NCBI GenBank assembly: GCA_016763315.1
Contig: JAESTZ010000094.1
Location: 1-37,139, forward strand
Reading direction: 5' to 3'
DNA from: Robiginitomaculum sp.
Lineage (GTDB): Bacteria > Pseudomonadota > Alphaproteobacteria > Caulobacterales > Maricaulaceae
DNA: 37,139 bases
Shown: positions 12,630-32,208 of the stretch, piece by piece
Layout: every line of letters starts with the position of its first letter
Position numbering within the stretch: position 1 is the stretch's first letter
Notes under the pieces: generated by a model
Databases searched by the model: none
What the model saw: the letters and a program-made list of their open reading frames with translations, nothing else
Told to the model about the DNA's origin: nothing
Translations under genes and position numbers: made by a program

Positions 12630-12633
12630 TTTG

Positions 12634-14796: not shown

Positions 14797-15560
14797 TTTA
14801 TTTGTCGTTCCTGTATTTGGCTATAAATACTGGTAACAGGTGCGATAATGTAATTTCTGGCAATTGCTTCATTTATTACTGCCCGTAGCAAAGCTGGCGA
14901 GCAGCCCCATCTGCTGAATTTAGCACGAACATCATGACTATAAAAAATCAACCAGCCGTTTTTGGCATCAAGTTGCTCGAAGAAGTTTTTGATATATTGT
15001 AAATTATCAATATCACCCTCTATTGGTACAGCGAGTAACTGATTGGCATCACTGCCCTTGCGATTTATTCCCGGTTGCACTCCGCGCAAAGTTGCAAACT
15101 TGTCTGCCAAGGCCTTTTTTGATGTAAATGAAACATCGCCATAGGGAAAAGCAAATGTATCGGCATTACTGATACCTAATGCCGATAAAACTGCCCTGTT
15201 TCTTTGTATTTCCATTTGCACCACGGCTGGCGGACTAACTGCGCAATCTATATGGTTTTGCGTGTGGCAACCAATTTCATGACCGGCGGCAAACAATCGC
15301 TCTATGTCATCAGAACTGCACAATTCGCCAAAATGGTTGCTTTGGCCAAATTGTCCGGTACAGGCATAAAACGTTCCGTGTAAGCCCTTATCTTCCAAAG
15401 ACTGTGCACCAGCGATTGCGCTGGACTTGGGGAAATCATCAAAGCTAAAACTTATATATTTTTGGTCAATTGTTGGCAATAGTTTACGGCTAGCCAAGCG
15501 GGTTAGCCGACGTCGGATTTTGCCTTTGAGGCTCAAGTCAGGTAAATATGGCGCATTCAT
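14793..15560 (-). CDS. Polysaccharide deacetylase (NodB-type)
   Basis: A 255-residue carbohydrate esterase family 4 protein. Motif 1 is SFDDFP with D41 and D42. Motif 2 is HEIGCHTQNH, giving metal ligands H99 and H103. FPYG at 138-141 is the conserved third motif, and IFYSHD near residue 206 gives the late histidine. These would bind the divalent metal and remove N-acetyl (or O-acetyl) groups from a sugar. A Gly normally found after the first aspartates is replaced by Phe-Pro. I see no signal peptide, so it may act on the lipid-linked intermediate in the cytoplasm. The ATG at 15560 overlaps the upstream TGA and has GGAG upstream; the longer frame is unlikely. Confidence 0.85.
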   Translation of the reverse strand: MNAPYLPDLSLKGKIRRRLTRLASRKLLPTIDQKYISFSFDDFPKSSAIAGAQSLEDKGLHGTFYACTGQFGQSNHFGELCSSDDIERLFAAGHEIGCHTQNHIDCAVSPPAVVQMEIQRNRAVLSALGISNADTFAFPYGDVSFTSKKALADKFATLRGVQPGINRKGSDANQLLAVPIEGDIDNLQYIKNFFEQLDAKNGWLIFYSHDVRAKFSRWGCSPALLRAVINEAIARNYIIAPVTSIYSQIQERQIK

Positions 15561-16507
15561 GCCAGTTTCTCCGCATACCAACCGGCGCGCCACAGCTTGA
15601 GCGCAAGTATCCGTAAAGACATGGGTACAATATGCCATTTGTCCCTTGCTAATATGGAGAACAATGGTCTTGCCAATTTTAGCCCCGGCATTTTTGCTGC
15701 CATCTTTGCCGTGCGATAGCTTGGTAATTGTCTTGCAAGTTTTGGGTGGCGTGCGACAAATCTGGCATAATTATCCGCAGAATCTCGGAACCTGCGGATC
15801 AAGGTTTCTGTGCTTTCCAGACCAATATGCAGCGCCTGATTATCCACATGGGTAATTGTGAATTTCTCGGCGGCTCTGGCCGCCCATTCCACATCTTCCC
15901 AACCCCAACCGATAAATCCGCTATCAAATGGACAAGACAGTAATATATCTTTGCGCACCAGCAAGTTGGAAGAGCAGACATGTTTGGCTGGTAATATATT
16001 GCGCTGCTGTGCTGACAGACAATCAGATCCGGCAGACAATGCCCGATGTAGATCAAAGGCTTTGTCGGTTGCATTATTGCTTACTGAAAACCCGCCAAAA
16101 ATAATATCAGGGTTATCGCTTTGTATTTGTTGCAAATAGGTGTCCAGAAATGTTGCTTGTTTTGGCAGCATATCAGCATCAAGAAATAATAAATATTTAC
16201 CGTTAGCAGCATCGCGTAAGCGGTTTCGGGCAATACTTCGGCCATTGTTTTGCGCAGCGGTCAATAGTTTCGCTGGCAATTTGGCAGTGGTTATCGCCTT
16301 AGTCACCCGTTGACTTAATTTTCCATCACTCGTGCCATCATCATATAAAACAAGTTCCACCTGTGGCTGGGCTTGTTGTGACAATGCGGTAATAAGAGGC
16401 ACTGGATCATCATGGTAAAACGGCACAATAATTGACAATAAAACATCATCAGCTTGCGGATAATTATTAGAAAACTCTAAAACTGTATCATTGTTTGGGG
16501 CGTTCAT
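15557..16507 (-). CDS. Family 2 glycosyltransferase with GWGxED motif
   Basis: A 316-residue GT-A enzyme. LSIIVPFYHDD (24-34), the acidic LYDDGTSDG (54-62) and the DAD metal site in LFLDADM (110-112) mark the GT2 core. GWGWEDVEW (200-208) resembles the acceptor/catalytic motif of galactosyltransferase-like GT2 and GT7 enzymes. The C-terminal part is basic and amphipathic, suggesting peripheral membrane association. It is linked to both neighbours by four-base ATGA overlaps (flippase stop at 16504-16506, deacetylase start at 15560). It probably adds one sugar to the undecaprenyl-linked repeat unit; the sugar is unknown. Confidence 0.88.
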   Translation of the reverse strand: MNAPNNDTVLEFSNNYPQADDVLLSIIVPFYHDDPVPLITALSQQAQPQVELVLYDDGTSDGKLSQRVTKAITTAKLPAKLLTAAQNNGRSIARNRLRDAANGKYLLFLDADMLPKQATFLDTYLQQIQSDNPDIIFGGFSVSNNATDKAFDLHRALSAGSDCLSAQQRNILPAKHVCSSNLLVRKDILLSCPFDSGFIGWGWEDVEWAARAAEKFTITHVDNQALHIGLESTETLIRRFRDSADNYARFVARHPKLARQLPSYRTAKMAAKMPGLKLARPLFSILARDKWHIVPMSLRILALKLWRAGWYAEKLA

Positions 16508-17994
16508 GACTTGGCCTCAATGATTGATTTATTACTGAATTTAGCAGTAATAATTTTGCGACAATCTGCCAAGTTAAGAGCAAAAGCTGCAATCCCATAC
16601 ACCAGTATTCCGACACCGGCCATTATCAGTAATTTTGCGAAATCGGCCATATCATCAGGTATGGGCAAAGCTAAAACAGCTATTGCCATTAGCCCGCATG
16701 CTAATCCGGTTTTTGCGGCCTCAGCAAATGGCAGTGGTAATACAAAATGCCTTCTGCCAATTACGGCACTCATCACCATAGAGATGCTATAAGCGATAAT
16801 CGTTGCCACAACTGCGCCCATAAGTCCCATAATCGGCAGTAGAGCAAAATTAAGGGCAATATTCAAAACTGCCGGAACAGCAGTGACCAGCACCATAATT
16901 CTGGTGTGCTTGGAAAGAGTAAATGCCACTAACAGATAATAAGTAGTGATGCCATTCATCAACCCGGCCAGTGTGATCCATGGAATGATTGCTGCCGCGC
17001 CTTCTCGAAACTCGACACCGGTCATCACATTGGCCAAAGGTGCCGCCACCAATGCTATTCCGGTGGCCGCTGGAAATGTCATAAAGGCCATTACCCCAAA
17101 GGCTTTTTTAGCCATGTCACGGGCTTTTTGCGGATTGCCAAGTTCCAAAGCTGCGATCAATAATGGTCCCGCCGCCATGCCCGCCCAGACGAATAATATA
17201 TCCAGTCCTCGGTTAGCAGTACCGTAACCGGCGGCGTAAATTCCTACTTGCGCATTGCCAAGTACTCCGGAAATAACAAATCTGTCACCAGCTTGCAGAA
17301 TATAACCAAGAATTACTGACAAGGATAATGGCATGCCATAGGCAAAAAACTGTTTTAGCTCACCGAATGAGGCCTTGCCACCTTTGGCGCGCACCAGCAT
17401 TTTCGGTAATTCGAATACCAAGGCAATGCTTGCGGAGATGGCCAGACCGGCAAACGGACCGGCGGCTTTGAGGTCTGTAGTGTAAACAATGGCAATACCA
17501 AGTCCGAAACTGGCCATGACATTGAAAAATTCGACAATAGAATAACGCTTTACTTCTCTGGCGGCCTTTCTTGCTTCAAGGCTCAAAATTAAAAAACTAC
17601 GGATCAGCATCGAGCCAAGCCCATAGGCCAGAACAGTTTTCATTTCCGCTGAAAAGGGCAGGGCGGTTATGGCAATAAAGCCTGTTATACCGACGATTAC
17701 AGTGCCTATTAGCAAATAATGAAATGCGGTTGCCAGATGATCTGCTAGCCGCTGATCGGCCTCGGCTCTAACATATGTGCGTGCTACTGCGGCTTCGATC
17801 CAGGTGAAGGCCAATGAGTGTGTGATGGTTACAATCGAGAATACTAACGAGTACAAACCGAACTGTTCAGGAGTTAATAAGCGCGTCAAAATAAATATTC
17901 CGCCAAAACCGGCAACGGCTTGCGCAATATTTAACGGCAGATATCCAATTAGATGTCGCCAGAGCATCTTATATTTCCCAAAAAAATCAATCAA
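16504..17994 (-). CDS. Lipid-linked oligosaccharide flippase (Wzx/PST family)
   Basis: A 496-residue integral membrane protein with about 14 hydrophobic helices, typical of the MOP-superfamily polysaccharide exporters. The N-terminus, with FGGIFILTRLLTPEQFGLYS, is the diagnostic first-helix signature. It should flip the undecaprenyl-diphosphate glycan repeat from the cytoplasmic to the periplasmic leaflet, upstream of the Wzy-like polymerase encoded at 12634-14070. It follows the phosphotransferase gene by 40 bp on the same strand and overlaps the next glycosyltransferase by ATGA. Nothing is missing. Confidence 0.9.
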   Translation of the reverse strand: MIDFFGKYKMLWRHLIGYLPLNIAQAVAGFGGIFILTRLLTPEQFGLYSLVFSIVTITHSLAFTWIEAAVARTYVRAEADQRLADHLATAFHYLLIGTVIVGITGFIAITALPFSAEMKTVLAYGLGSMLIRSFLILSLEARKAAREVKRYSIVEFFNVMASFGLGIAIVYTTDLKAAGPFAGLAISASIALVFELPKMLVRAKGGKASFGELKQFFAYGMPLSLSVILGYILQAGDRFVISGVLGNAQVGIYAAGYGTANRGLDILFVWAGMAAGPLLIAALELGNPQKARDMAKKAFGVMAFMTFPAATGIALVAAPLANVMTGVEFREGAAAIIPWITLAGLMNGITTYYLLVAFTLSKHTRIMVLVTAVPAVLNIALNFALLPIMGLMGAVVATIIAYSISMVMSAVIGRRHFVLPLPFAEAAKTGLACGLMAIAVLALPIPDDMADFAKLLIMAGVGILVYGIAAFALNLADCRKIITAKFSNKSIIEAKS

Positions 17995-18034
17995 ATAGCA
18001 TCATAATCGTAAACAGCTAATTTGTGGTGAATGC

Positions 18035-19615
18035 TTATCTGGTGTTTTCGCTATCACCCAATAAACAAGGAGCTGTTTTAAGCATTATCAGCAAGTCAAA
18101 CCAGAAATTGGCGCGTCCGATATATTCCACATCAAGCCGCACCCGCTCGCGCACATCATTCGCATTGTGCAACGGCCCTCTAGATCCATTGACCTGCGCC
18201 CACCCGGTTAGCCCCGGCTTTACCCGATGGCGGTGAGCGTATTCAGCGACCAGAAGCCGACTTTCCGTGTCGCCAGTGTGCATATCAATTGCGTGTGGAC
18301 GTGGCCCAACCAGTGACATATTGCCCATAAGTACATTGATAAGCTGTGGCAGCTCGTCCAATGAGGTGCGCCGGATAAATTTACCAACTTTGGTGATCCG
18401 CTCGTCACCTTGGGTTACTTGTTGTAACTTTGCGCTTGGTTGCTGCACCCGCATCGAGCGAAATTTGAAAACATTGATCACTTTATTGTTAAATCCGTGG
18501 CGTTTTTGACGAAACAAAACTGGCCCTTTGGAGTCCAGTTTAATTGCCAATGCCACCAGAGCCATTATTGGTGCAAATGCTATCAACATAAGACTAGCAA
18601 ACACTACGTCTTGCAGGCGTTTGGTGAATATCCGCATTTCGTTTGTCTGGCCGCCGGAAATAAACGCCATTGGCGCATTGGCGATTTTTGCCAAGCTGGT
18701 TTGTTGCGGGTTGAAATTGCCCATATCTACAAACAGAACCAAATCCTGTGGCAGGCCGCGCAATCGATCAATCATCGCCCGAACTCTAGTTGTTGCCGTT
18801 GATGTGACCGTAATAATAATACGATCAATATTTGGCAAATGCTCCCATTTAAGCAAATCATCTACATTGCCAATTACTGGAACTCCGGAAACTTGCTTGG
18901 GGCTACGTGCTGCGCGATCTTCAAAAATACCGGCTACATTTAGCTCCCCTGTTGCGGAGTTCTCTTCAATAAGTTTTTGTGCATTGGGGGTGGCTCCGAC
19001 CATTACCACATTGGTAGCCAAAGCTCCCGAGCGTGTCCAAGAAGTAATTAACGCCATATAATTTGCATGTAAGGCTAATATTGCCAGCGACGATACCGAT
19101 AATACCATTATTAAACCACTCATTTCAGCCAATGGTAACTGGCTCATTACTGCTAACAATGAGCTAAAGCCGGCTCCGACAATAAGTCCGCAAATCGTTT
19201 TACCCCAATGGGCGGTCAGTTTTTCATTGTGGGCGAAATTATAGCTATTGCAAATTGCCAAACCTGCGGCGACAAGGAAAGGTGCCAATACAAATTGTGC
19301 GCTAATAGCAAATGGCGCCATTCCCAATGGTAACGGCGAAACCGAATTGAATATATAAAGTGCAACAGCAACTAAAACGACAAAATCTACTGCTTGAAAT
19401 AACCGCAAAGCAAAGGCTTTCGCTACTCTGGAAGATGTTGGTGGAATAGTGGTAGTAGGCGTTGCTGTAGCTTTGGTAGTCTCTTGCGCGGCTATTACTG
19501 CGGTTATCACAGGGTTTGCCAACAAAAAACCCGGATCGTTTAGCTCGTTGGCCGGCATTGTTTTGTCAATGCTTGATAGGACAGGTTGATTGTCGGATTT
19601 TATAATTGCAACCAT
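18035..19615 (-). CDS. Polyprenyl-phosphate sugar phosphotransferase (WcaJ/WbaP-like)
   Basis: A 526-residue enzyme that starts glycan assembly by moving a sugar-1-phosphate to undecaprenyl phosphate. The N-terminal part holds four transmembrane helices and a CoA-binding-like domain (VMVGATPNAQKLIEE, GVPVIGNVDDLL). The C-terminal catalytic domain has the re-entrant helix, KFRSMR, DELPQLINVLMGNMSLVGPRP and the basic RVKPGLTGWAQVNG. The start is uncertain. The ATG at 19615 begins MVAIIKSDNQ, but the frame is open to 19741. It leads the minus-strand glycan operon and reads away from tRNA-Ser(GCT). Confidence 0.88.
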   Translation of the reverse strand: MVAIIKSDNQPVLSSIDKTMPANELNDPGFLLANPVITAVIAAQETTKATATPTTTIPPTSSRVAKAFALRLFQAVDFVVLVAVALYIFNSVSPLPLGMAPFAISAQFVLAPFLVAAGLAICNSYNFAHNEKLTAHWGKTICGLIVGAGFSSLLAVMSQLPLAEMSGLIMVLSVSSLAILALHANYMALITSWTRSGALATNVVMVGATPNAQKLIEENSATGELNVAGIFEDRAARSPKQVSGVPVIGNVDDLLKWEHLPNIDRIIITVTSTATTRVRAMIDRLRGLPQDLVLFVDMGNFNPQQTSLAKIANAPMAFISGGQTNEMRIFTKRLQDVVFASLMLIAFAPIMALVALAIKLDSKGPVLFRQKRHGFNNKVINVFKFRSMRVQQPSAKLQQVTQGDERITKVGKFIRRTSLDELPQLINVLMGNMSLVGPRPHAIDMHTGDTESRLLVAEYAHRHRVKPGLTGWAQVNGSRGPLHNANDVRERVRLDVEYIGRANFWFDLLIMLKTAPCLLGDSENTR

Positions 19616-19826
19616 GATCGATTTTCCCGATTCTTGTATCTGCCGGTAAATATAGGCAAACTTGCCCAACAGCCGGTTAAACATCGTGCTTAAATTTCGG
19701 TAAATGCAATGGTTAAAATATTTAATAGTTCGAGTTTGCAATAAGATAACCGGATAGAATAACCAAAGTGTGTTTTTGTTAAAAAACCGCTTGAATGCGT
19801 TTATTATAGCGGCTAAACCCGTCCAC

Positions 19827-20735: not shown

Positions 20736-22595
20736 ATGTATCGGTTACACATGATAACGGATCCTTCTCATACTGCAAATCTGCGCATTGCGATTGACCG
20801 CAATAGCTCGCTCTCCATGCAAGAACAAATTCGTCGCAAGATTATTGACGATATTGCCTTGGGGGTATTGATTGCCGGAACGCGTATGCCACCGAGTAGG
20901 CAATTAGCCCATGACCTTGGTGTCTCTAGAAACACCATAATCATGGCCTATGACCGGCTGGTGTCCGATGGCCATTTAATCAGTAAGGATCGACGCGGTT
21001 TGTTTGTTCGTGAGGGTATGTTCGGGCGCGATCTTGGTGCGATACAGGTCACCGGCTCCAGACAGAGTATAAACCAATCCGTATGGCACGCGCGCCTAGC
21101 CACGGTAGCATTGCCTAGTTTGACCTCGGTCTTGCCTCCAGATTGGGATCAATATCCATACCCGCTGGTCGACGGCCCTTTTGATCGCTCATTATTTCCT
21201 GTGGCGCAGTGGCGAGAAGCCAGCCGCCGCGCGCTTTCGGTTCAAGAAATCAATATTTGGACGCGCAATGCCGGTGATGCCGATGATCCGATGTTAGTGG
21301 ACGAATTAAGGCGCAAAGTTTTGCCGTTAAATGGCATTAGCGTGCAGTCCGAAGAAGTTTTGGTGACCACGGGGGCGCAACAGGCCTTAAGTCTGGTATG
21401 TGATCTTTTGGTGCATGATGGCATGCGGGTAGTTCTGGAAAATCCCTGCCATCCTGAATTACGGATGCTATTGCAAAAAAAGAAAGTCCAAATTACGGCT
21501 CTTGATGTGGATGAAAACGGCATGCAACTAAGTGCCGAGGCAATACAGGCCGCGGATATTATTTTTATATCTCCTGGTTGCCAGCGCCCAACCGGGGCGA
21601 CTTTGTCCGACGAGCGCCGGGCTTTGTTATTGCAGATTGCTGCAGAATCAGGGAAAATTATTGTCGAAGATGATTGCCAATGGGAAACCAGCTTGAGCAC
21701 CAATGCTCTGCCAGCCTTGCGCGGCATGCCGGGCGGAGAAAACGTGATCTATATGGCGACATTGGCACAACCATTAGCACCAGCCATCCGGTTGGGGGTG
21801 CTGGTAGCGCCTATCCCGGTCATCCGCGCCGCACGAAATTTGCGACGCATTACCGCGCGCCACCCAGCCTTGAGCATACAGCGCACTTTTGCCCACATGT
21901 TGGCGCTTGGTCATTATGCGGCGCTGCTGAGGCATGTTGAAGAAGCGTTTGCTAAGCGCATGATCGCTTTGCGTGAAGCACTTAACTATTATCTGCCGAA
22001 CAAAATTTCCCTTTTACCAACTCTGATTGGGACTTCAGCTTGGATAACTGGCCCTAAAACCCTAGACACCCGGCTGTTGGTAAAACGCGCCGGAACTCAT
22101 GGTGTATTGATCGAGCCAGTGCACGATTATTATTCGCGCGCGGTTCCCAACAATGTTTTTCGTTTAGGTATTACCGGCCTTGTTGAAAGTAAAATTCGAG
22201 ATGGTGTTGCTGCTTTTGCAAATGCTTTTCGTGAAACCATGGATCCTACTCCTTCAAAAACTAACTTTGATGCAGCGCAAGCCCTTTCTGGGTCAGCCAT
22301 TAAGCGCGTCTGTAACGGAGCCAAATTACTATGTAAGACAGTATATGGCGATCCTTGCACCATCGTGCTGAGTCGTAATGGCGAGATGCAAGGTCGTGCC
22401 GGCTTTGCCAATGAAGATCGCGACCATGGTACGTGGTGGGTCGAGGGTGATTACTGGTGTCGCCAATGGCGGCAATGGTCCTATGGCGAAGTGGGTCGCT
22501 TTCGCGTGGTGTTACGGGGCGAGCGTATCGAATGGTTCCACCAAGACGGTCACCTTGTGGATTGGGCAATATTGGTGCGCCGTAACAAGAAGTAA
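20736..22595 (+). CDS. MocR/GabR-like GntR-family regulator with degenerate PLP site and extra C-terminal domain
   Basis: The protein has 619 residues. An N-terminal winged helix (about 27-95, with MPPSRQLAHDLGVSRNT) is joined to a fold-type I aminotransferase-like domain (about 130-499). Family landmarks are TTGAQQALSLVCDLL, SPGCQRPTGATLS and VEDDCQWE. In GabR, Asp279, Tyr281 and Lys312 hold PLP. Here the corresponding residues are D312, C314 and Q345, so the Schiff-base lysine and the ring tyrosine are lost; FRLG near 475 is kept. About 120 extra residues (500-619) end in a Trp/Cys-rich segment, GDYWCRQWRQWSYGE. It is placed to control the gabT/gabD cluster downstream, but probably not through a PLP-GABA aldimine. 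The start is the ATG at 20736, or 20751. Confidence 0.85.
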   Translation: MYRLHMITDPSHTANLRIAIDRNSSLSMQEQIRRKIIDDIALGVLIAGTRMPPSRQLAHDLGVSRNTIIMAYDRLVSDGHLISKDRRGLFVREGMFGRDLGAIQVTGSRQSINQSVWHARLATVALPSLTSVLPPDWDQYPYPLVDGPFDRSLFPVAQWREASRRALSVQEINIWTRNAGDADDPMLVDELRRKVLPLNGISVQSEEVLVTTGAQQALSLVCDLLVHDGMRVVLENPCHPELRMLLQKKKVQITALDVDENGMQLSAEAIQAADIIFISPGCQRPTGATLSDERRALLLQIAAESGKIIVEDDCQWETSLSTNALPALRGMPGGENVIYMATLAQPLAPAIRLGVLVAPIPVIRAARNLRRITARHPALSIQRTFAHMLALGHYAALLRHVEEAFAKRMIALREALNYYLPNKISLLPTLIGTSAWITGPKTLDTRLLVKRAGTHGVLIEPVHDYYSRAVPNNVFRLGITGLVESKIRDGVAAFANAFRETMDPTPSKTNFDAAQALSGSAIKRVCNGAKLLCKTVYGDPCTIVLSRNGEMQGRAGFANEDRDHGTWWVEGDYWCRQWRQWSYGEVGRFRVVLRGERIEWFHQDGHLVDWAILVRRNKK

Positions 22596-22619: not shown

Positions 22620-22648
22620 CTGGACTCAACGATTAGGTTCATCTGGAC
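22620..22648. promoter_or_regulatory. Direct repeat CTGGAC, candidate MocR-type operator
   Basis: CTGGAC at 22620-22625 and 22643-22648 repeats at a 23-bp period, about two helical turns, in the 134-bp gap between the regulator and the amidohydrolase. MocR regulators bind direct repeats, so this is a possible site. A hairpin CCCCG / CGGGG (22693-22709) lies just before the amidohydrolase ribosome-binding site. Both are inference from short motifs. Confidence 0.35.
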
Positions 22649-22729
22649 CTATTGTTAGCCTGCTCCAACCCATAGAAGTAACTTCAGGAAAACCCCGTGC
22701 AAAGCGGGGAAAAGTATTCAGGAGGTGCT

Positions 22730-23605
22730 GTGTCCAAATTTGCAATTGCCGCTCTGCAACTGGAGCTGGAATCCAAAGACAATATTGACCTGTTGTGCCA
22801 AGAAATTAGAATTGTGCGCAAAAGGTTTCCTTGGGTCGATATGGTTGTGCTTGCAGAACTGGCAAGTTTTGGCACCGGCCTAAAACATGCGCAAACCATG
22901 CCCGGCACAGCAGAACAGAGCTTTTGCACGTTGGCCAAAGAAACCGGACTATGGATATTGCCCGGCAGTTTGTATGAAAAAAAAGACGACAAGGTTTTCA
23001 ACACTGCTCCGGTCATAAACCCGGCAGGTGAAGTCGTTACCCGATGCCGCAAAATGTTTCCATTTTTGCCCTATGAAACCGGCGTTACCAGCGGCGAAGA
23101 ATTCACGGTTTTCAATATTAACGGCGTTGGCTGTTTTGGTGTTTCCATTTGTTATGACATGTGGTTTCCCGAAACTACACGCACATTGGTCTCCATGGGT
23201 GCCGAGGTAATTTTACACCCCAGCTTAACCAATACTTTGGATCGCGATGCAGAATTAGCGATTGCCAGATCTAGTGCTGTGACCAATCAATGTTATTTTT
23301 TCGATATTAATTCTGCGGGAAAATTGGCTTTTGGGCGCTCAATCATCGCGGGGCCCGGCGGCGAAATCATCCATCAAGCGGGTGCAGGTCGCGAGATTAT
23401 ACCGATCGAGATTGATCTGGAATATGTGCGCCGAGTACGGACACAGGGCTGGCACAATTTAGCCCAACCTTTGAAAAGCTTTCGCGACCACAAAACACCT
23501 TTTCCAATTTATCAGAACCACAATAACTCATCTGCTCTTACGGAGCTCGGCCCATTAGCCATGGCCAAAAAAGCGAACACCAACAAAGACAATAAAAGCC
23601 AATGA
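22730..23605 (+). CDS. Carbon-nitrogen hydrolase (nitrilase superfamily)
   Basis: A 291-residue cytoplasmic amidase-type enzyme. The catalytic triad is E43 (VVLAELASFG), K108 (CRKMFPFLPYE) and C141 (GVSICYDMWFPE). A second conserved block, ILHPSLTNTLDRDAELAIAR, follows. The GTG at 22730 has a perfect AGGAGG (22720-22725), so it is preferred to the longer frame. No signal peptide is seen. The superfamily hydrolyses amides, nitriles or carbamoyl groups; the substrate cannot be read. Between a GabR-like regulator and gabT/gabD, an amide of GABA or a related omega-amino acid is a reasonable guess. The C-terminus is a polar, Lys/Asn-rich tail. Confidence 0.85.
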   Translation: MSKFAIAALQLELESKDNIDLLCQEIRIVRKRFPWVDMVVLAELASFGTGLKHAQTMPGTAEQSFCTLAKETGLWILPGSLYEKKDDKVFNTAPVINPAGEVVTRCRKMFPFLPYETGVTSGEEFTVFNINGVGCFGVSICYDMWFPETTRTLVSMGAEVILHPSLTNTLDRDAELAIARSSAVTNQCYFFDINSAGKLAFGRSIIAGPGGEIIHQAGAGREIIPIEIDLEYVRRVRTQGWHNLAQPLKSFRDHKTPFPIYQNHNNSSALTELGPLAMAKKANTNKDNKSQ

Positions 23606-23643
23606 TCAAACCATCAAATTTCGGGGACAAAAGGAGATTTCCA

Positions 23644-26040
23644 ATGTTTAATACACGCAAAAAACTAACAAGCCGCTCGCTACTAAGCCTATTGCTGGGC
23701 TGTACAATCCTAACGCCGGGTCTGGCTTTTGCGCAAGAAACTGAACAGGCAAAAGATGTGGATGAAATCACAGTCACGACCCAGCGCCGCGAAGAAAACA
23801 TTTTAGATGTACCTTATAACATTTCTGTTGTTTCCGGTGCCGATATTGCCAATGCAATCACATTGGATTCCGCTGAGTTACTACGCACCATTCCCGGGGT
23901 CAGTCAGATTGATCAAGGACAGCGCAATATACAGTTCAACAGCATTCGTATTCGAGGCCTTAATGTAGATAGCTCGGCTTTTGGGGATTTTTTGCTCGGC
24001 TCAGCTCCAACGGTCTCTACGTATGTCAATGAAACCCCGGTTTTTGCCAATATGGCACTAATTGACCTTGATCGCGTCGAAGTGCAACGGGGGCCACAAG
24101 CCACGCTTTATGGCTCAGGGGCATTGGGTGGAACAGTAAAGTATTTCACCCGCAAGCCACAGTTTGACGAAGTTAGCGGCAGTTTTATTGGCACTGTGTC
24201 TTCGGTGAACGGCTCTGGCAGCCTTGGATATTCGGCTGGTGGTATTTTTAATGCCCCGGTAAGTGATAAATTTGCCATTCGCGCCAATGTGTTGTGGCAA
24301 GATTATCCCGGTATCACTGATTACACGAACCTGTATGTACTCGACAATAATGGCGTTCCAACCCAGCCCAATGGTATTTTTGACCTAGGCGCAGATTCAG
24401 CAGAATACCGTACCAAAAAAGATGCTGATAATTATCAAAGCCTTTATGCACGGATTAGTGCTCGTTGGGCTCCGACAGAAAACGTCGACTTTGTGGCCAG
24501 TTATTTCTACCAGTCGGATGATAGCGGCGGTCGTCGGCAACCCAGCCAAGGCAATGACGGACTAGGCAGCCCTTATGGCCAATATGAAAACGGTGCGGTG
24601 ATCGAAGAACCAGCATCGCGCAATTTGGATATGGGGTCTCTGGAAGCTAATATTGACTTAGGCTTTGCAACTTTAACTTCTGCTACATCTTATTACGAAA
24701 ACACTGGCAATAGTGAGACCGATAATACCGGCTTTTTTGCCAATAATCTGGCACAATTTTATGTCTCGCCCACATTTGTTTTTCCACGGCCACTTTACAC
24801 AGCTAAGCGAACTTTTTCCGATAAGTCATTTGTTCAAGAAGTCCGTCTGGTTTCTAATGGAAAAAACCGCTTTGACTATGTTTTGGGCGCATTTTATCAG
24901 GATCAAACTCGCGACGCCACACAAGTAAGCGACCTTGTGGGTTTTGAAGCTTGGGCTGATGCTTTCTTTCTCACTGATTTTGTTTTTACCGATAATATAT
25001 TTACCTTTGATCGCCAAGAGGATTACAGAGAAGTCGCAATTTTTGGGGAACTGACTGCCAATTTAACGGATCGCTTTAAGCTCACTGGCGGACTTCGTTA
25101 TTTTGACAACGAATCCACTACCAATACCTTTGTACGTGCAGGGCCATATACCTTCTTCAATGGTCAATCCGACACTATTTTTACTGCCAAAGACAGTAAA
25201 GTTCTGTTCAGAGCTAATGCCGCCTATGAGTTTAGCGATGACGACCTGCTTTATGCGACCATTTCTGAGGGGTATCGACGTGGTGGTAGTAATGGAGTGC
25301 CGACCACTGGGCAATTTGCAAATAATCCGGCTTGGCTAACCTTTCAATCCGATACAGCCCTTAACTATGAAGTAGGTATAAAAGGCACTGCCTCGGGTCT
25401 TCGATATGATTTGAATGCGTTTTATATCGACTGGAGCAATCCACAATTTAACACCTCGACACCTAACGGCTTTTTCTTTGCCGTGGCCAATGCGGATAAA
25501 GCCCGCTCGCAAGGCATTGAGGCACAAATCAGCGGCAGTAGCGACGACGGTATGTTTAACTATTCTATCGGCTATACCCTTGTAGATGCTAATTTAACCA
25601 AAGACTTTATTGCCCCGCCGGGTTTTGGCCTTATCACGGGAACGATGGTGGCCGCCAATGGTGCACCTTTACCCGGCGTTGCCAAACATTCGTTTAATGT
25701 GGCCGCTGATTATACCATTCCTTTGAGTAATGGCATGAACTTTATCAGCCGGTTTGACGCCTTTTATCAGTCCTCAACGCAAAATGTACTGGATCAAAAT
25801 GTATTTCAGGCAGTACAATTTGACGGCTTCGCGGTAGTGGATATGACCTTTACTGTGGCTGCTGATAAATGGAACGCGTCATTATTTGTTAAAAATATTG
25901 GCAATACGTCAGGCACGACTGGATCTTTTACACCGGCGGCTTTTGGTCCCAATCCAGCAGCTGATTTTTATGGTAGCAATGCCCGTAAATTCATTACCTT
26001 GCCTCGGACCATTGGCGTGGCTTTGAATGTGGGTTTCTAA
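23644..26040 (+). CDS. TonB-dependent outer-membrane receptor
   Basis: A 798-residue receptor. The signal peptide ends at GLAFA-QETEQ (about residue 30), followed by DEITVTTQRREENILDVPYN as TonB box and start of the plug (about 40-165). The plug carries RIRGLNVDSS and DRVEVQRGPQATLYGSGALGG. The 22-strand barrel ends in the usual terminal Phe (GVALNVGF). AAGGAG lies eight to nine bases before the ATG at 23644; the longer frame from 23602 would spoil the signal peptide. It should import a large or scarce nutrient using the proton motive force. Its neighbours point to the compound degraded by the cluster rather than to a siderophore. No iron-regulatory site was seen. Confidence 0.93.
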   Translation: MFNTRKKLTSRSLLSLLLGCTILTPGLAFAQETEQAKDVDEITVTTQRREENILDVPYNISVVSGADIANAITLDSAELLRTIPGVSQIDQGQRNIQFNSIRIRGLNVDSSAFGDFLLGSAPTVSTYVNETPVFANMALIDLDRVEVQRGPQATLYGSGALGGTVKYFTRKPQFDEVSGSFIGTVSSVNGSGSLGYSAGGIFNAPVSDKFAIRANVLWQDYPGITDYTNLYVLDNNGVPTQPNGIFDLGADSAEYRTKKDADNYQSLYARISARWAPTENVDFVASYFYQSDDSGGRRQPSQGNDGLGSPYGQYENGAVIEEPASRNLDMGSLEANIDLGFATLTSATSYYENTGNSETDNTGFFANNLAQFYVSPTFVFPRPLYTAKRTFSDKSFVQEVRLVSNGKNRFDYVLGAFYQDQTRDATQVSDLVGFEAWADAFFLTDFVFTDNIFTFDRQEDYREVAIFGELTANLTDRFKLTGGLRYFDNESTTNTFVRAGPYTFFNGQSDTIFTAKDSKVLFRANAAYEFSDDDLLYATISEGYRRGGSNGVPTTGQFANNPAWLTFQSDTALNYEVGIKGTASGLRYDLNAFYIDWSNPQFNTSTPNGFFFAVANADKARSQGIEAQISGSSDDGMFNYSIGYTLVDANLTKDFIAPPGFGLITGTMVAANGAPLPGVAKHSFNVAADYTIPLSNGMNFISRFDAFYQSSTQNVLDQNVFQAVQFDGFAVVDMTFTVAADKWNASLFVKNIGNTSGTTGSFTPAAFGPNPAADFYGSNARKFITLPRTIGVALNVGF

Positions 26041-26089
26041 CGATACACTTGGTTTGGTTATAACAACGTAGTCTTACTACGGAACGGAT

Positions 26090-28270
26090 ATGCTCATGAA
26101 AGTCGTACTGGTTGCTATTAGTCTGCTTTTTCTTGTCACATCAGCCAGCGCGCAAACCTTATTTGCCGAAGACTTTCAAGACGGCAATGCCGATGGCTGG
26201 CAGTCCGCAGGCAAGGGCGATATTCGACTAACCACTTATGACGGCAATGTTTCCATGCGCCTTACCCGCTCGGCTAGTGCGCTGATTGGTCTAAATATTG
26301 AGGGGTTGGAGCAGGTGCGTATATCTGCATCATTTGCGGCAATGAATTTGGAAAAAAACGATGCCTGTATCGCAGAAGCCTCTACTTCTGGCGGCAAGCA
26401 ATGGACTGAGGTGTTGCGCGTTGAAGACGGCGCTGATGATGGACTAACCCTATATACCGGTTCGGCAATTTTGGGCATCAAGGGGTCGCCTTTATTGATC
26501 CGTTTGCGTGCTGCTGGCAATCAAAAGGATGATACTTGTTGGGCAGATAATATCACCATTAGTGCTTTAAACGAGCAAACAACAGAGAAGTCGAATGCAC
26601 GCACGGCCTTGTCCTTAGACTTTCTTACTGGCATGGGCAATTTGGCAAACCCCGTGCCCATGAGTGCCTACATTGCGGTCGAGGGTGCAAGCCAAACTGC
26701 GGTCAATATCCAAGGCCGTTTGTCGTTTCATGTCACCGAAGAATCAGCGCATATGAAAGTTTTACGCGATCGCTTTGGTTTTTTAGACAACCAAGCAAAA
26801 GGCTTGGGCGTACCACCGGGGTTTGATCTTAGCTTTGTGCAGGTGGGTGATCGCCTTGTGCCAAAAACCCGCGGCCTGATCCGAACCGATAATGAGGCTT
26901 GGGATATACTTGTCGAGCCGGGGCGAATTTGGCTAGAATCCGGCGATGCGGAGTTTTCTCGGGCGGCTTTGCCATTTTCCTTACAAGAACGTAACGCCAA
27001 TTGCACCCATAATGGTGTGCTGAGCTTTCTCATCAAACCTGATGGCGAAACTTCCCGTGCTGCCTATCAAATCGCCTCCGAAACCTGCCTATATTTTCAA
27101 TATAATATGTGGGGAACCGCAAGCATTACTTACGCACCAGGAGCGGTGGATAATGCCAAGGATTTGCGCGCGGCTTTTACGCAAGAACTACAAAACAAGA
27201 TGTCAACCCGCGCCTTTAGCGCGCTTGCTACTGACCACCCGGGTCTTGATGTCAGCGCTTTTGCTTCGCCAGATGATGTAACGCCAGAAGCCATGACCGC
27301 CTATGGGGTGATACTTGATGGGGTGCATTATCTTGGCGGTTGCGAGACCCGGTATGGGCCATACCCATTTTGTGATAATTTGGCTATTCCTTCTTATTCA
27401 TTAGCAAAATCCATTTTTACCGGTCTTAGCATGATGCGCCTGAAAAAGCTCTACCCAGAGGCAGAAACCGCATTGATTGAGAACTATGTACCGCAATGCG
27501 CCAAGGCTGGATGGAGCGGCATTGGTTTTGGTCATGCGCTGGATATGGCTACCGGTCGCTATAAATCGACAAAAAATGAAAAAGATGAAAACGCCGCCGT
27601 TCAAGACGGATTTTTCATTGTGCCGGATCATAAGCGCAAAATTAACCGAGCTTGTTCTTTGTACCCACGAAAAAGCAAACCGGGCACGAAGTGGGTTTAT
27701 CATACTACGGATCATTATGTTTTGGGTACGGCCATGCAAGGTTTTTGGCGTGAGCGCCGTGGAATTGATGCCGATATTTACCAAGACCTGTTGGTTGATC
27801 CGATTTGGAAAGCCATAAACCTGTCTCCGCTCAGTTATAAAACTCGGCGCACTCTGGACGCGGTGGCGCAACCCTATGTCGGTTGGGGGCTTACTTTCAC
27901 ACCAGATGATCTAGCTAAAATCAGTCAATTCATTGCGGTAGATCATGGCCAAATCAACGGCGTGGATGTGATTGATACTCGGGCATTGCGTGCGGCCCTA
28001 CAAATGGATCATGCCGATCCTGGCTTACCGGCACCGGGCAAAGACTTTCGATATAATAATGGCTTTTGGGCTTGGGATGCCAGCGGTGTCCTAAAACAAA
28101 AATCTGCGATTTGGGTGCCTTTTATGTCTGGTTTTGGCGGCTTGTCAGTGGTGCTGATGCCCAATGGCATGGTCTATTACTACATCAGCGATAACAACGA
28201 ATATGCTTGGGCTAAAGCTGTTATTGCAGCCAATGCATACCGCAAATTTCCAAAGGAATTATCACAATGA
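26090..28270 (+). CDS. Secreted beta-lactamase-fold serine hydrolase with N-terminal sandwich domain
   Basis: The protein has 726 residues. The signal peptide (VVLVAISLLFLVTSASA-QTL) is followed by a predicted beta-sandwich module (about 25-165, FAEDFQDGNADGWQSAG onward). A long middle region leads to the class C beta-lactamase/serine hydrolase domain: the nucleophile S437 and K440 in SYSLAKSIF, the Tyr motif Y537 in VYHTTDHYVLG, and a terminal SGFGGLS in place of KTG. Such enzymes cleave esters, amides, peptides or lactams. It overlaps the MFS gene by ATGA (28267-28270). ATG at 26096 is an alternative start. It is probably periplasmic and acts on what the TonB receptor imports. Confidence 0.82.
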   Translation: MLMKVVLVAISLLFLVTSASAQTLFAEDFQDGNADGWQSAGKGDIRLTTYDGNVSMRLTRSASALIGLNIEGLEQVRISASFAAMNLEKNDACIAEASTSGGKQWTEVLRVEDGADDGLTLYTGSAILGIKGSPLLIRLRAAGNQKDDTCWADNITISALNEQTTEKSNARTALSLDFLTGMGNLANPVPMSAYIAVEGASQTAVNIQGRLSFHVTEESAHMKVLRDRFGFLDNQAKGLGVPPGFDLSFVQVGDRLVPKTRGLIRTDNEAWDILVEPGRIWLESGDAEFSRAALPFSLQERNANCTHNGVLSFLIKPDGETSRAAYQIASETCLYFQYNMWGTASITYAPGAVDNAKDLRAAFTQELQNKMSTRAFSALATDHPGLDVSAFASPDDVTPEAMTAYGVILDGVHYLGGCETRYGPYPFCDNLAIPSYSLAKSIFTGLSMMRLKKLYPEAETALIENYVPQCAKAGWSGIGFGHALDMATGRYKSTKNEKDENAAVQDGFFIVPDHKRKINRACSLYPRKSKPGTKWVYHTTDHYVLGTAMQGFWRERRGIDADIYQDLLVDPIWKAINLSPLSYKTRRTLDAVAQPYVGWGLTFTPDDLAKISQFIAVDHGQINGVDVIDTRALRAALQMDHADPGLPAPGKDFRYNNGFWAWDASGVLKQKSAIWVPFMSGFGGLSVVLMPNGMVYYYISDNNEYAWAKAVIAANAYRKFPKELSQ

Positions 28271-29457
28271 ACAGTGTAAAGCCACGCTTTCCTAAGGCGG
28301 CTCCAGATGGGTTGTTGGCTGCTGTTTTTTTGGCTTTTCTGGCCACTGCTGGATTGTTTTATGTCAATATTTTAGCGGCTATTGTTGATGGGCTTGTCTC
28401 TGGCATGGGGCTTAGCGAGGGCGTGGCAGGCGATATTGGGTCGGCCAATATTTATGGTGCGGCCTTGGGGGCGATTATTGCTTTTGCCGTAGTCAAGCGC
28501 CTACCGTGGCGGCCAATGGCGGTGCTGGCTCTCATTGGCTTAATTACATTGGATCTTGGCTCCATTGCCATTCGCTCGGCAGAGGTTTTGCTGCCATTGC
28601 GCTTTGTTCATGGGCTAATTGGCGGCTTTTTGGTAGGCACGGCTTTTTCTGTGATCGCCCGCACCCAATCGCCGGACCGCACATTTGGCATGTTGTTATT
28701 TGTACAATTTGGCCTTGGTGGATTGGGCGTAATGTTCCTGCCGCGTTTGGTGCCGATCTTTGGGACTCAAGCTTTATTTCTTTCATTGGCAGCGTTTAGT
28801 TTTGCCACCTTGCTCATGGTGCCGTTTTTAGATCGCTATGATGCCGACAGGGTAAGACGCCCCTTGGCAAATAAGGATAAAGTGCGCACCTTGCCTCTGG
28901 TGCAAACATTGGCGGCTATATTTTTGTTTCAAATGGCTAATATGGCTCTGCTTGCCTTCATCATTCGCCTTGGACGTGGTTATGGATTAGATACAAATTT
29001 TGTCAGCATGGCGTTGGGTTTGGCCACATGGATTGCCTTGATCGGGCCGCTAGTGGTGATGGTTATTGGCTTGCGATTTGGGAGGTTTTGGCCGCTGGCA
29101 ATCGGTATTGTTTTAACCTTGGTTGGCACCGCATTGTTTCACCTTAGCGCCTCACCTTGGGCTTATTTGCTGGCTAATTGCGGCACGGGTATCACTTGGG
29201 GCATGGCCATTGCCTACCTTTTTGGCATGACCGCCGAGTTTGATAAATCCGGGCGCACGTCGGCGTTGGGCGGCTTTATTTCGAAACTAGGACTGGCAAC
29301 TGGCCCGATGATCGCCGGGCGGGTATTAGATGCCGGCCTTGGCTTTGGATCACTGATCAATCTTGCCCTAATCGGTTTAGCACTTTCTGGCTTTTTAATG
29401 CTGTTTCCGGCTCGCAATCTCGATCGAGTGAACGCCCAGAATAACACACAAGAATAA
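28267..29457 (+). CDS. MFS transporter
   Basis: A 396-residue membrane protein with about 12 hydrophobic helices in two halves separated by the charged loop RYDADRVRRPLANKDKVR (about 195-215). Short basic loops such as VKRLPWRP after helix 2 fit the major facilitator pattern. The start overlaps the hydrolase stop (ATGA) and the stop shares one base with the gabT frame. It therefore belongs to the same transcript and probably moves the hydrolysis product across the inner membrane. Export of an end product is the other possibility. The substrate is not recognisable. Confidence 0.85.
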   Translation: MNSVKPRFPKAAPDGLLAAVFLAFLATAGLFYVNILAAIVDGLVSGMGLSEGVAGDIGSANIYGAALGAIIAFAVVKRLPWRPMAVLALIGLITLDLGSIAIRSAEVLLPLRFVHGLIGGFLVGTAFSVIARTQSPDRTFGMLLFVQFGLGGLGVMFLPRLVPIFGTQALFLSLAAFSFATLLMVPFLDRYDADRVRRPLANKDKVRTLPLVQTLAAIFLFQMANMALLAFIIRLGRGYGLDTNFVSMALGLATWIALIGPLVVMVIGLRFGRFWPLAIGIVLTLVGTALFHLSASPWAYLLANCGTGITWGMAIAYLFGMTAEFDKSGRTSALGGFISKLGLATGPMIAGRVLDAGLGFGSLINLALIGLALSGFLMLFPARNLDRVNAQNNTQE

Positions 29458-29471
29458 TGGAAATTCAAATA

Positions 29472-30749
29472 ATGAAAACCAATGCAGACTTAATTGTTCG
29501 CCGTGAAAATGCTGTAGCCAAAGGCATCGCTACGGCAGCGCCGATTTATGTGCAGCGCGCACAAAACTCGACCCTTTGGGATGTGCAAGGACGACGTTTT
29601 ATTGATTTTGCTGGCGGCATTGCGGTGTTAAACACCGGTCATTGTCATCCCAAAATAATTGCTGCGGCCAATGAACAAATGCAGCACCTGACCCATAGTG
29701 CCTTTCAAGTGGCAGCTTATGAGCCATATGTTACGCTTTGCGAGCGTCTAAACGCCGTATCGCCGATCAATGGCAAAGCCAAAACCGTTTTGTTTTCCAC
29801 CGGCGCCGAAGCCGTAGAAAACGCGGTTAAGATTGCCCGCGCCGCCACTGGTCGCTCAGGCATTATCGCTTTTAGCGGTGGCTTTCACGGGCGCACCATG
29901 ATGACAATGGCCTTAACCGGCAAAGTGGTACCCTATAAGGGTGCGTTTGGCCCAATGCCAGCCGAGGTCTATCATGCGCCATTTCCCATTGCGCGCTATG
30001 GCATTGATGTGCAGGCGAGCTTGAATGCGCTGACACATTTGTTTCGCGCCGATATTGCGCCCGATCGCGTGGCAGCGATTATTATCGAGCCAGTACAAGG
30101 CGAAGGCGGTTTTCATGCAGCTCCGATTGAGCTGATGCAGGCTTTGCGCAAAATATGTGATCAACACGGCATTATGCTGATCGCCGATGAAGTGCAAACC
30201 GGCTTTGGCCGTACTGGCAAATTGTTTGCTATCGAGCACAGCGACATTGCCCCTGACATGTTGGTTGCTGCCAAATCCTTGGCCGGGGGTTTTCCGCTTT
30301 CCGCCGTTATTGGCCGCGCCGATGTGATGGACAGCGTTGGCCCCGGCGGGCTCGGCGGCACCTATTCTGGCTCCCCGATTGCATGTGCCGCGGCATTAGC
30401 AGTACTGGATGTGATTGAAGATGAGAACCTGCTCAATCGCTCGGTGGAACTGGGCAAAATGGTCAAGCAACGCCTCAATGAATTTGCCGCCAATGCGAGC
30501 TTACGTCCAATGGATGCCATACGCGGCCTTGGCTCGATGGTCGCGTTTGATTTGGTCACCAAACCCGGTGGCAATACCCCCGATGCAGCCGCCGCCAAAG
30601 CGGTTACTGCAAAAGCCTTTGCAAACGGGTTGATCTTGCTTAGTTGCGGTGTTTCAGGTGAAACAATTCGGCTTTTATATCCGCTAACCATTAGCGATGA
30701 AACGCTAAATGAGGGTTTGCATATGCTTGAAAATGCACTTGAGGTTTAA
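29472..30749 (+). CDS. gabT: 4-aminobutyrate aminotransferase
   Basis: A 425-residue class III aminotransferase that converts GABA plus 2-oxoglutarate to succinate semialdehyde plus glutamate. STGAEAVENAVKIAR and GGFHGRTMMTMALTG bind PLP phosphate, IADEVQTGFGRTG has the ring aspartate, and the Schiff-base lysine is K268 in AAKSLAGGFPLSAV. The 29472 start places that lysine at the same number as in E. coli GabT, which supports it over the ATG at 29457 that overlaps the MFS stop. All catalytic residues are present. Related enzymes also accept 5-aminovalerate or beta-alanine, so the exact substrate may differ. Confidence 0.93.
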   Translation: MKTNADLIVRRENAVAKGIATAAPIYVQRAQNSTLWDVQGRRFIDFAGGIAVLNTGHCHPKIIAAANEQMQHLTHSAFQVAAYEPYVTLCERLNAVSPINGKAKTVLFSTGAEAVENAVKIARAATGRSGIIAFSGGFHGRTMMTMALTGKVVPYKGAFGPMPAEVYHAPFPIARYGIDVQASLNALTHLFRADIAPDRVAAIIIEPVQGEGGFHAAPIELMQALRKICDQHGIMLIADEVQTGFGRTGKLFAIEHSDIAPDMLVAAKSLAGGFPLSAVIGRADVMDSVGPGGLGGTYSGSPIACAAALAVLDVIEDENLLNRSVELGKMVKQRLNEFAANASLRPMDAIRGLGSMVAFDLVTKPGGNTPDAAAAKAVTAKAFANGLILLSCGVSGETIRLLYPLTISDETLNEGLHMLENALEV

Positions 30750-30753
30750 CATC

Positions 30754-32208
30754 ATGTCAAAACTAAATCTGTTAAAAGAACAAGCCTATATTGACGGCGC
30801 ATGGATGGATGCATTGTCCGGTAAAACCATTGCTGTCAACAATCCTGCCAATGGCGATGTTATTGCTCATGTTCCTAAAATGACTGCGCAAGAAACACGA
30901 ACAGCGATCGAATCTGCTGCCAAAGCCCTAACAAATTGGCGCGCAAAAACGGGCAAAGCACGGGCTGTTATCCTGCGCCGATGGTATGAGCTAATCATGC
31001 AAAACCAAGAGTATTTAGCGCAAATCTTGAGCCTTGAGCAAGGCAAACCATTGGCTGAAGCGCGCGGCGAAATCGCCTATGGCGCAAGCTTTATCGAGTG
31101 GTTTGCCGAAGAAGCTAAGCGCACCTATGGCGAAACCATTCCCGGCCATATGCCCGGCGCGCGTTTGATGACGATTAAACAGCCCGTAGGCGTGGTTGCC
31201 GCCATTACACCGTGGAATTTTCCCAATGCCATGATTACCAGAAAGGCCGGCGCAGCATTGGCTGCGGGATGTACCATGGTGGTAAAACCTGCGGAACAGA
31301 CACCCTTATCTGCGCTGGCATTGGCGGTGCTTAGCCAAGAAGCGGGCATTCCTGCCGGAGTGTTTTCGGTAATAACTGGTGATCCGGTGGCCATTGGTGG
31401 CGAGCTAACAAAAAACCATCTGGTACGTAAATTGACCTTTACAGGTTCCACAGCTACGGGGCAGCTTTTGATGCGCCAATGCGCCGATACGGTAAAGAAA
31501 ATCTCGTTGGAACTTGGCGGCAATGCACCGTTTATTGTGCTCGATGATGCCGATGTGGATAAGGCCGCAGCCGGGGCCATTTTGTGCAAATTTCGCAATG
31601 CGGGGCAAACTTGCGTCTGTGCTAATCGTCTTTATGTACAAAGCGGAGTTTATGATAAATTTGTAGAAAAATTTACAGCATTGGCCGCCGATCTCACCGT
31701 TGGGCCCGGGCAAAACGAAGACAGTGATCTTGGCCCACTGATTGATGAGGCCGCTTTGACCAAAGTGCAAAGCCATTTATCCGATGCACTGGCCAAGGGT
31801 GCATCCGTTGAAACTGGCGGCGCACCCCATGCCTTGGGCGGCCTGTTCTTTGAACCCACCGTGTTGCGCGATGCCTCTCAAGACATGTTAATTACCCGCG
31901 AGGAAACCTTTGGCCCATTGGCACCAGTGATCAAGTTTGAAACCGACACAGAGGTCTTGGCAATGGCCAATGACACCCCCTTTGGCTTGGCGTCATATCT
32001 GTTTACCGGCAATATCAATCGCGCTTACACCATTGCCGAAGGTCTAGAAGCCGGCATGGTTGGCATCAATACCGGATTGATTTCGACCGAACTTGCGCCC
32101 TTTGGCGGCATCAAACAATCGGGGCTGGGGCGCGAAGGTGGCCGCCAAGGTATCGAGGAATATTTGGAAACAAAATATATCTGTCTTGAGATAGACCCGT
32201 CATGGTGA
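30754..32208 (+). CDS. gabD: Succinate-semialdehyde dehydrogenase
   Basis: A 484-residue aldehyde dehydrogenase that oxidises succinate semialdehyde to succinate, feeding the TCA cycle. AAITPWNFPNAMITRK binds the cofactor, E253 lies in LELGGNAPFIVLDD, the catalytic C287 in NAGQTCVCANR, and the C-terminal GGIKQSGLGREGG closes the fold. Cys and Glu positions correspond to E. coli GabD within one residue. The ATG at 30754 follows the gabT stop by four bases, with GAGG nine bases upstream. It completes the GABA shunt with the preceding transaminase. The upstream in-frame extension overlaps gabT and is rejected. Confidence 0.95.
   Translation: MSKLNLLKEQAYIDGAWMDALSGKTIAVNNPANGDVIAHVPKMTAQETRTAIESAAKALTNWRAKTGKARAVILRRWYELIMQNQEYLAQILSLEQGKPLAEARGEIAYGASFIEWFAEEAKRTYGETIPGHMPGARLMTIKQPVGVVAAITPWNFPNAMITRKAGAALAAGCTMVVKPAEQTPLSALALAVLSQEAGIPAGVFSVITGDPVAIGGELTKNHLVRKLTFTGSTATGQLLMRQCADTVKKISLELGGNAPFIVLDDADVDKAAAGAILCKFRNAGQTCVCANRLYVQSGVYDKFVEKFTALAADLTVGPGQNEDSDLGPLIDEAALTKVQSHLSDALAKGASVETGGAPHALGGLFFEPTVLRDASQDMLITREETFGPLAPVIKFETDTEVLAMANDTPFGLASYLFTGNINRAYTIAEGLEAGMVGINTGLISTELAPFGGIKQSGLGREGGRQGIEEYLETKYICLEIDPSW

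Follow-up and report, generated by a model that had tools for sequence, protein, structure and literature searches.

The window analysed here, a stretch of 37,139 nucleotides from Robiginitomaculum sp., encodes a regulator of the MocR family in which the lysine that anchors PLP is replaced by glutamine, and the protein belongs to a subfamily, marked by an added C-terminal domain, from which this lysine is often missing. We consider it somewhat probable (roughly 0.55) that the protein is a working, cluster-specific MocR-type regulator that operates without the lysine-PLP Schiff base and senses a GABA-type carboxylate non-covalently, through the old aminotransferase pocket, the added domain or both. 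The MocR family has been described as PLP-dependent, with a conserved lysine, and the extended subfamily offers natural and repeated exceptions to that description. The occurrence of lysine-keeping and lysine-less relatives in a matching gene cluster would allow a direct test of which aspects of MocR signalling need the Schiff base, and of whether covalent sensing can give way to non-covalent sensing with operator and regulon kept. A first-pass annotation of this DNA had recognised the loss of the residue, and missed the C-terminal domain by which the subfamily can be told.

The regulator and its PLP site

The gene, its two domains and the residues of the PLP site, the latter placed by alignment with GabR, are the following (all on the forward strand):

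20736..22595 (+), MocR regulator CDS, 619 aa
20820..21008 (+), GntR winged helix-turn-helix, residues 29-91 (Pfam PF00392, E 4.8e-14)
21180..22241 (+), aminotransferase-like domain, residues about 149-502 (PF00155 over residues 150-378, plus matches to GabR from the PDB and to other MocR/aminotransferase proteins)
21450..21452 (+), His239, replacing the PLP-stacking aromatic residue (GabR Tyr205)
21669..21671 (+), Asp312, kept; GabR Asp279, contact of the pyridine N
21675..21677 (+), Cys314 (codon TGC), replacing GabR Tyr281
21765..21767 (+), Ala344, replacing GabR Ser311
21768..21770 (+), Gln345 (codon CAA), replacing the PLP-anchoring lysine (GabR Lys312)
21789..21791 (+), Arg352, kept; position of GabR Arg319
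22161..22163 (+), Arg476, kept; GabR Arg430, carboxylate contact

Translation may actually start at Met6 (20751), the first methionine common to five orthologs. Two of the features that define the MocR subfamily are present, namely the GntR-type winged helix-turn-helix (PF00392) and the fold-type I aminotransferase-like domain (PF00155, and GabR chains with E values down to 5.7e-34), and the third, the PLP-anchoring lysine, is absent (Gln345), leaving a site without the residue on which PLP is held covalently in PLP-dependent fold-type I proteins. The protein scored 154.9 bits against the NCBIfam GabR model (NF052285), for which the curated cut-off is 600, and 284.9 bits against the PdxR model (NF052282; cut-off 320), which is still its best general family match among models such as PdxR and MocR (NF052281). 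As it lies below the NCBI cut-offs for both GabR and PdxR, it is best called, from these profile scores, a MocR protein of unassigned subgroup; the label "GabR-like", under which it had been annotated, was right as to MocR membership and too loose as to GabR, whose cut-off it fails. Judged by its sequence, the protein is a MocR by descent and, having lost the lysine, not a PLP-aldimine MocR.

Sites were mapped with a phmmer alignment to GabR of PDB 4n0b (E 5.7e-34). There is no gap between the two sites that had been reported as lost (D312/D279, C314/Y281, Q345/K312), in agreement with the previous statement that the alignment is firm and that the spacing of 31 residues is that of GabR. Gln345, with its codon CAA at 21768-21770, and Cys314 do fall on Lys312 and Tyr281. 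The interval assigned to them, 21669-21770, starts as proposed at Asp312, and needs correction in that the motif EDDCQWE itself starts earlier, with E311 at 21666. The likeness to GabR of Bacillus subtilis, which controls gabT-gabD, thus covers the winged helix-turn-helix, the aminotransferase-like domain and the ungapped alignment of the PLP site, and extends to the targets, a GABA transaminase and a succinate-semialdehyde dehydrogenase (SSADH), and to a direct-repeat operator, of which the window holds a candidate; the two proteins differ in the replacement of Lys312, Tyr281, Tyr205 and Ser311 and in the C-terminal domain added in the window protein.

With these residues, a covalent PLP internal aldimine cannot form at the site equivalent to Lys312. 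This is the part that stands of the earlier proposal of a PLP-free domain in need of another effector; "PLP-free" goes too far, since the equivalents of Asp279, Thr309 (Thr342 in the window protein), Arg319 and Arg430 are kept and leave room for non-covalent binding of PLP or PMP. Within the aminotransferase domain, the sequence alignment shows just two lysines fixed in the clade with glutamine, K194 and K423, and K194 is also kept in members that have Lys345. A full-length AlphaFold2 model, built with five close orthologs, was of low confidence (pLDDT 41.7, pTM 0.28).

The closest experimental counterpart is EnuR K302H, a laboratory variant of the ectoine regulator changed at the same residue, which lost PLP and became a constitutive repressor (PMC8739950). 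It resembles the window protein in being a MocR without the PLP lysine, and is still a dimer; it differs in being artificial and non-inducible, wild EnuR proteins keeping the lysine in 278 of 278 cases (PMC8739950). As that variant is constitutive without PLP, the window protein, if inducible, would need another route of sensing. It might also sense nothing, acting all the time as a repressor or an activator that keeps the cluster under basal control, as in EnuR K302H, a DNA-binding protein whose repression is constitutive (PMC8739950). We regard this as improbable, given that strong constraint acts on the C-terminal domain as well as on the pocket region and that a catabolic cluster would be costly if permanently run or silenced.

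Gene cluster and candidate operator

Downstream of the regulator, and in the same orientation, the window contains:

22620..22651 (+), candidate operator, direct repeat CTGGACTCA-N14-CTGGACCTA, 23 bp apart, conserved across orthologs
22697..23605 (+), carbon-nitrogen hydrolase of the nitrilase superfamily (PF00795, E 4.2e-31)
23602..26040 (+), TonB-dependent receptor (PF00593, PF07715)
26090..28270 (+), 726-aa protein with a weak serine beta-lactamase-type match (PF00144, E 8e-4, below cut-off)
28267..29457 (+), MFS transporter (PF07690)
29457..30749 (+), 4-aminobutyrate transaminase (TIGR00700, 565 bits, cut-off 506.65)
30709..32208 (+), succinate-semialdehyde dehydrogenase (TIGR01780, 694.7 bits, cut-off 646.35)

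The presence of the GABA transaminase and the SSADH suggests that the substrate of the cluster yields GABA. No PLP-metabolism genes were found among the annotated genes of the window. In those alphaproteobacterial members of the subfamily with enough flanking sequence, the order regulator, hydrolase, TonB receptor, (TPR sulfotransferase), 726-aa protein and MFS transporter is kept, and in the taxonomic order of the window organism SSADH and/or GABA transaminase then follow, again where the flank is long enough. The TPR-sulfotransferase gene (PF13469), which in the other clusters separates the TonB receptor gene from that of the 726-aa protein (L034, 5861-7648), is absent from the window (26040-26090) and from L031. 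All the lysine-less members whose surroundings were fetched are near catabolic genes, mostly for GABA transaminase, SSADH and a nitrilase-family hydrolase, and have a CTGG direct repeat, a candidate operator, with half-sites 22-23 bp apart; in L224, which has aspartate, the regulator gene is transcribed divergently from this same set of genes. In the other bacterial class in which the subfamily was found, that of G1009, five lysine-less members with fetched flanks belong to an SSADH-GABA transaminase-regulator operon, as does L324 (arginine), and L327 lies in a TonB-type cluster. Neighbouring transporters there include a TRAP system (L322) and a dipeptide-type ABC system (L324). The 726-aa protein, conserved in the cluster, recurs near extended MocRs of that class.

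Two further features of the region were recorded. A truncated IS6/IS240-type transposase (PF13610; 20166-20501, reverse strand) lies directly upstream of the regulator, with a related fragment upstream in L032, and genes of polysaccharide/O-antigen type (Wzy_C ligase, glycosyl transferase, flippase and sugar transferase) adjoin the cluster at 12535-19741.

The candidate operator, between the regulator and hydrolase genes, reads CTGGACTCAACGATTAGGTTCATCTGGACCTA in the window. Direct repeats of CTGG half-sites spaced by 22-23 bp precede the catabolic genes in lysine-keeping and lysine-less members alike, and in the other class such a repeat precedes the SSADH operon or a transporter. When two mismatches were allowed, the pattern was not rarer than chance within the window, and the case for an operator rests for that reason on its conservation across genomes. 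The direct repeats used by MocR proteins lie two or three turns of the helix apart (PMC5320631), and the CTGGAC repeats 23 bp apart fit a spacing of about two turns. A similar sequence, CTGGACYTAA, forms the direct repeats bound by TauR, the taurine regulator of the MocR subfamily (PMC5320631); TauR is likened here by its operator alone, its target genes being different from those of the window cluster. The DNA side of the regulator, with its predicted operator, is apparently unchanged.

The absence of the lysine, along with the conservation of the DNA-binding domain, of the candidate operator and of the cluster, leads us to infer ligand sensing without an internal aldimine. The regulator would bind the direct repeat located before the hydrolase, TonB receptor, MFS, GABA transaminase and SSADH genes, and a compound of the pathway, GABA or a carboxylate that releases it, would be sensed non-covalently. 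This ligand might sit in the former aminotransferase pocket, with the carboxylate-binding Arg476, and/or in the added beta-domain; the latter may take over part of the sensing or of the signal transmission, freeing the PLP site to erode.

Loss of the lysine in an extended MocR subfamily

A scan of a collection of chromosomes yielded one distant relative besides four close orthologs. The four other Robiginitomaculum orthologs, with identities of 96, 86, 74 and 70%, all have the same glutamine and cysteine, so that both are fixed in five Robiginitomaculum species, the window included. L184 and L185, from another family of the same order, share the glutamine and have tyrosine at the cysteine site. 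This distribution indicates that the glutamine is neither a sequencing error nor an accident of one genome. Its codon varies between CAA and CAG, and the dN/dS of the aminotransferase domain within Robiginitomaculum is about 0.04-0.19, an approximate range since dS is saturated in several pairs. Gln345 is thus a maintained substitution in a maintained protein under purifying selection. The assembly of the window consists of 122 contigs, and a decaying pseudogene or an assembly error had to be considered on that account; the chance of either is negligible, both being refuted by the orthologs, with an intact open reading frame, a fixed glutamine whose codon varies synonymously between CAA and CAG among seven genomes, and dN/dS far below 1.

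For comparison we used 197 ordinary MocRs, all lacking the C-terminal domain, which were drawn from the alphaproteobacteria, from the wider phylum and, in the other class, from the closest relatives. The lysine is present in 194 of them, with arginine in two (L099, L122) and asparagine in one (L151, which has several further changes in the PLP site); Asp279 is aspartate in all 197, and the Arg319 position is arginine in 196. The check originally proposed, alignment with MocR proteins, hence places the loss in Gln345 beyond chance. These figures match the published descriptions of the lysine as conserved in all MocR clusters (PMC6677901) and in all MocRs of M. smegmatis (PMC2018728), and our search of the open-access literature found no report of natural lysine-less MocRs. 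The change of tyrosine to cysteine is less telling, because cysteine is also found at that position in two ordinary MocRs that keep the lysine and because one survey describes Tyr281 as typical of no cluster but that of GabR (PMC6677901). It was dropped as key evidence.

MocRs with the C-terminal extension were sought in the order, class and phylum of the window organism and in one other class, and 32 were found, 24 from the order of the window and eight from the class of G1009; no description of MocRs extended in this manner was found in the open-access literature searched. The lysine is absent in 20 of the 32 vs three of the 197 ordinary MocRs (Fisher p 1e-17, a value that ignores kinship). 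Glutamine occupies the position in the five Robiginitomaculum proteins and in L184 and L185, glutamate in L197-L199, aspartate in L200, arginine in L194, L294, L295 and L309, and serine in L291-L293, L296 and L297; the remaining 12 keep the lysine. The extended MocRs form one clade, with support of 100/99 for 24 members and SH-aLRT of 96 in a wider tree with 27 representatives. That tree requires at least three changes between lysine and not-lysine, a minimum that includes trees with one early loss and later regain, or five losses if lysine was never regained, and seven changes if the replacing residue is counted. The alphaproteobacterial tree pairs the glutamine clade with the glutamate/aspartate clade, but support for this grouping is weak (80/61), and the AU test rejects neither alternative to it (p 0.21 and 0.40). 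The lysine has probably been lost repeatedly in the subfamily marked by the added domain, with the tree minimum also allowing an early loss followed by regain. Its loss, correctly noticed in the window protein, is therefore not peculiar to it and recurs across the whole subfamily.

The PLP site is eroding widely across the subfamily, to differing degrees. The stacking aromatic of GabR (Tyr205) is lost in all 24 extended MocRs of the window's order. In the glutamate/aspartate clade Asp279 is also lost (isoleucine) and the Ser/Thr309 position is aspartate or asparagine, which makes ordinary PLP binding unlikely there; despite this wider loss, neither the cluster around the gene nor its candidate operator has changed. 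In the serine clade only the lysine is replaced, and the equivalents of Tyr205, Phe250, Asp279, Ser309 and Arg319 remain. The Arg430 position (Arg476 here) is arginine in 32 of 32 extended MocRs and also in the nearest ordinary relatives, so that its conservation is partly inherited and no innovation. The reverse kind of damage is seen in L006, L186 and L188, which keep the lysine and have glycine at the phosphate-site arginine (GabR Arg319).

The main rival to carboxylate sensing is the non-covalent binding of a B6 vitamer in the pocket. The vitamer might be PMP, PLP or an aldimine of PLP with an amino acid that arises outside the regulator, the adjacent GABA transaminase being one conceivable source; as such binding requires no internal aldimine, the regulator would be able to do without the lysine. 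Some fold-type I enzymes work with PLP although they lack the lysine, such as ColD, which has histidine there instead. The window protein keeps Asp312, Thr342, Arg352 and Arg476, several lysine-less members retain most of the PLP pocket, and the idea is at its strongest in the serine clade. It is weakest in the glutamate/aspartate clade, devoid of Asp279, and has to face the glycine at Arg319 in three lysine-keeping members, the additional loss of the stacking aromatic and of Ser311 in the lineage of the window, and the behaviour of EnuR K302H, whose yellow colour disappeared and whose repression turned constitutive (PMC8739950). We find this explanation unlikely, with a chance that is still appreciable.

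The added C-terminal domain

The extension by which the subfamily is recognised follows the aminotransferase-like domain:

22281..22580 (+), added C-terminal domain, residues about 516-615, with the motif GxWWVExDxWxRQWxxW, within about 110 aa after residue 505

It had no match in a Pfam search, and no relatives were found in viral contigs. An AlphaFold model of the isolated domain is all-beta (pLDDT 70.6, pTM 0.70). Foldseek gave no significant match to it (best E 0.14), and the nearest solved fold is the lipocalin lipoprotein 5cyb (Z 6.2), and many further lipocalins, together with avidins, score Z 4-6, a range (Z 4-6.2) that can reflect no more than a common arrangement. A calycin/lipocalin-like fold is a lead suggested by this model.

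The preferred reading of non-covalent carboxylate sensing leaves open to the domain a share in ligand binding. In a stronger version of its role, which we consider doubtful, the appended beta-barrel would have become the sensor in place of PLP chemistry, leaving the aminotransferase domain as a mere scaffold for the dimer and leading to several losses of the PLP site. The domain is also present in the 12 members that keep the lysine, and is thus not sufficient for its loss. With the topology fixed, the ratio of total branch length in the C-terminal domain to that in the aminotransferase domain is 0.62 in the glutamine clade and 0.47 in the glutamate/aspartate clade, vs 1.22 in the lysine-keeping clade (L194 included), and 30 of 30 column bootstraps agree; relative to the aminotransferase domain, the extension evolves more slowly where the lysine is gone. 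With only two lysine-less clades compared, these ratios are no more than suggestive of a gain in importance of the added domain once the lysine was lost, and are no proof of sensing by it.

Relatives of the domain are short alphaproteobacterial proteins, apparently secreted, with the same GxWW...CxxW signature; it is found in addition fused to kinase-like and other proteins, in contexts that differ from MocR. Under the form GxWWVExDxWCRxW, it is widespread in the alphaproteobacteria (L156, L157, L177, L182, L158, L178, L166) and is represented by no Pfam model.
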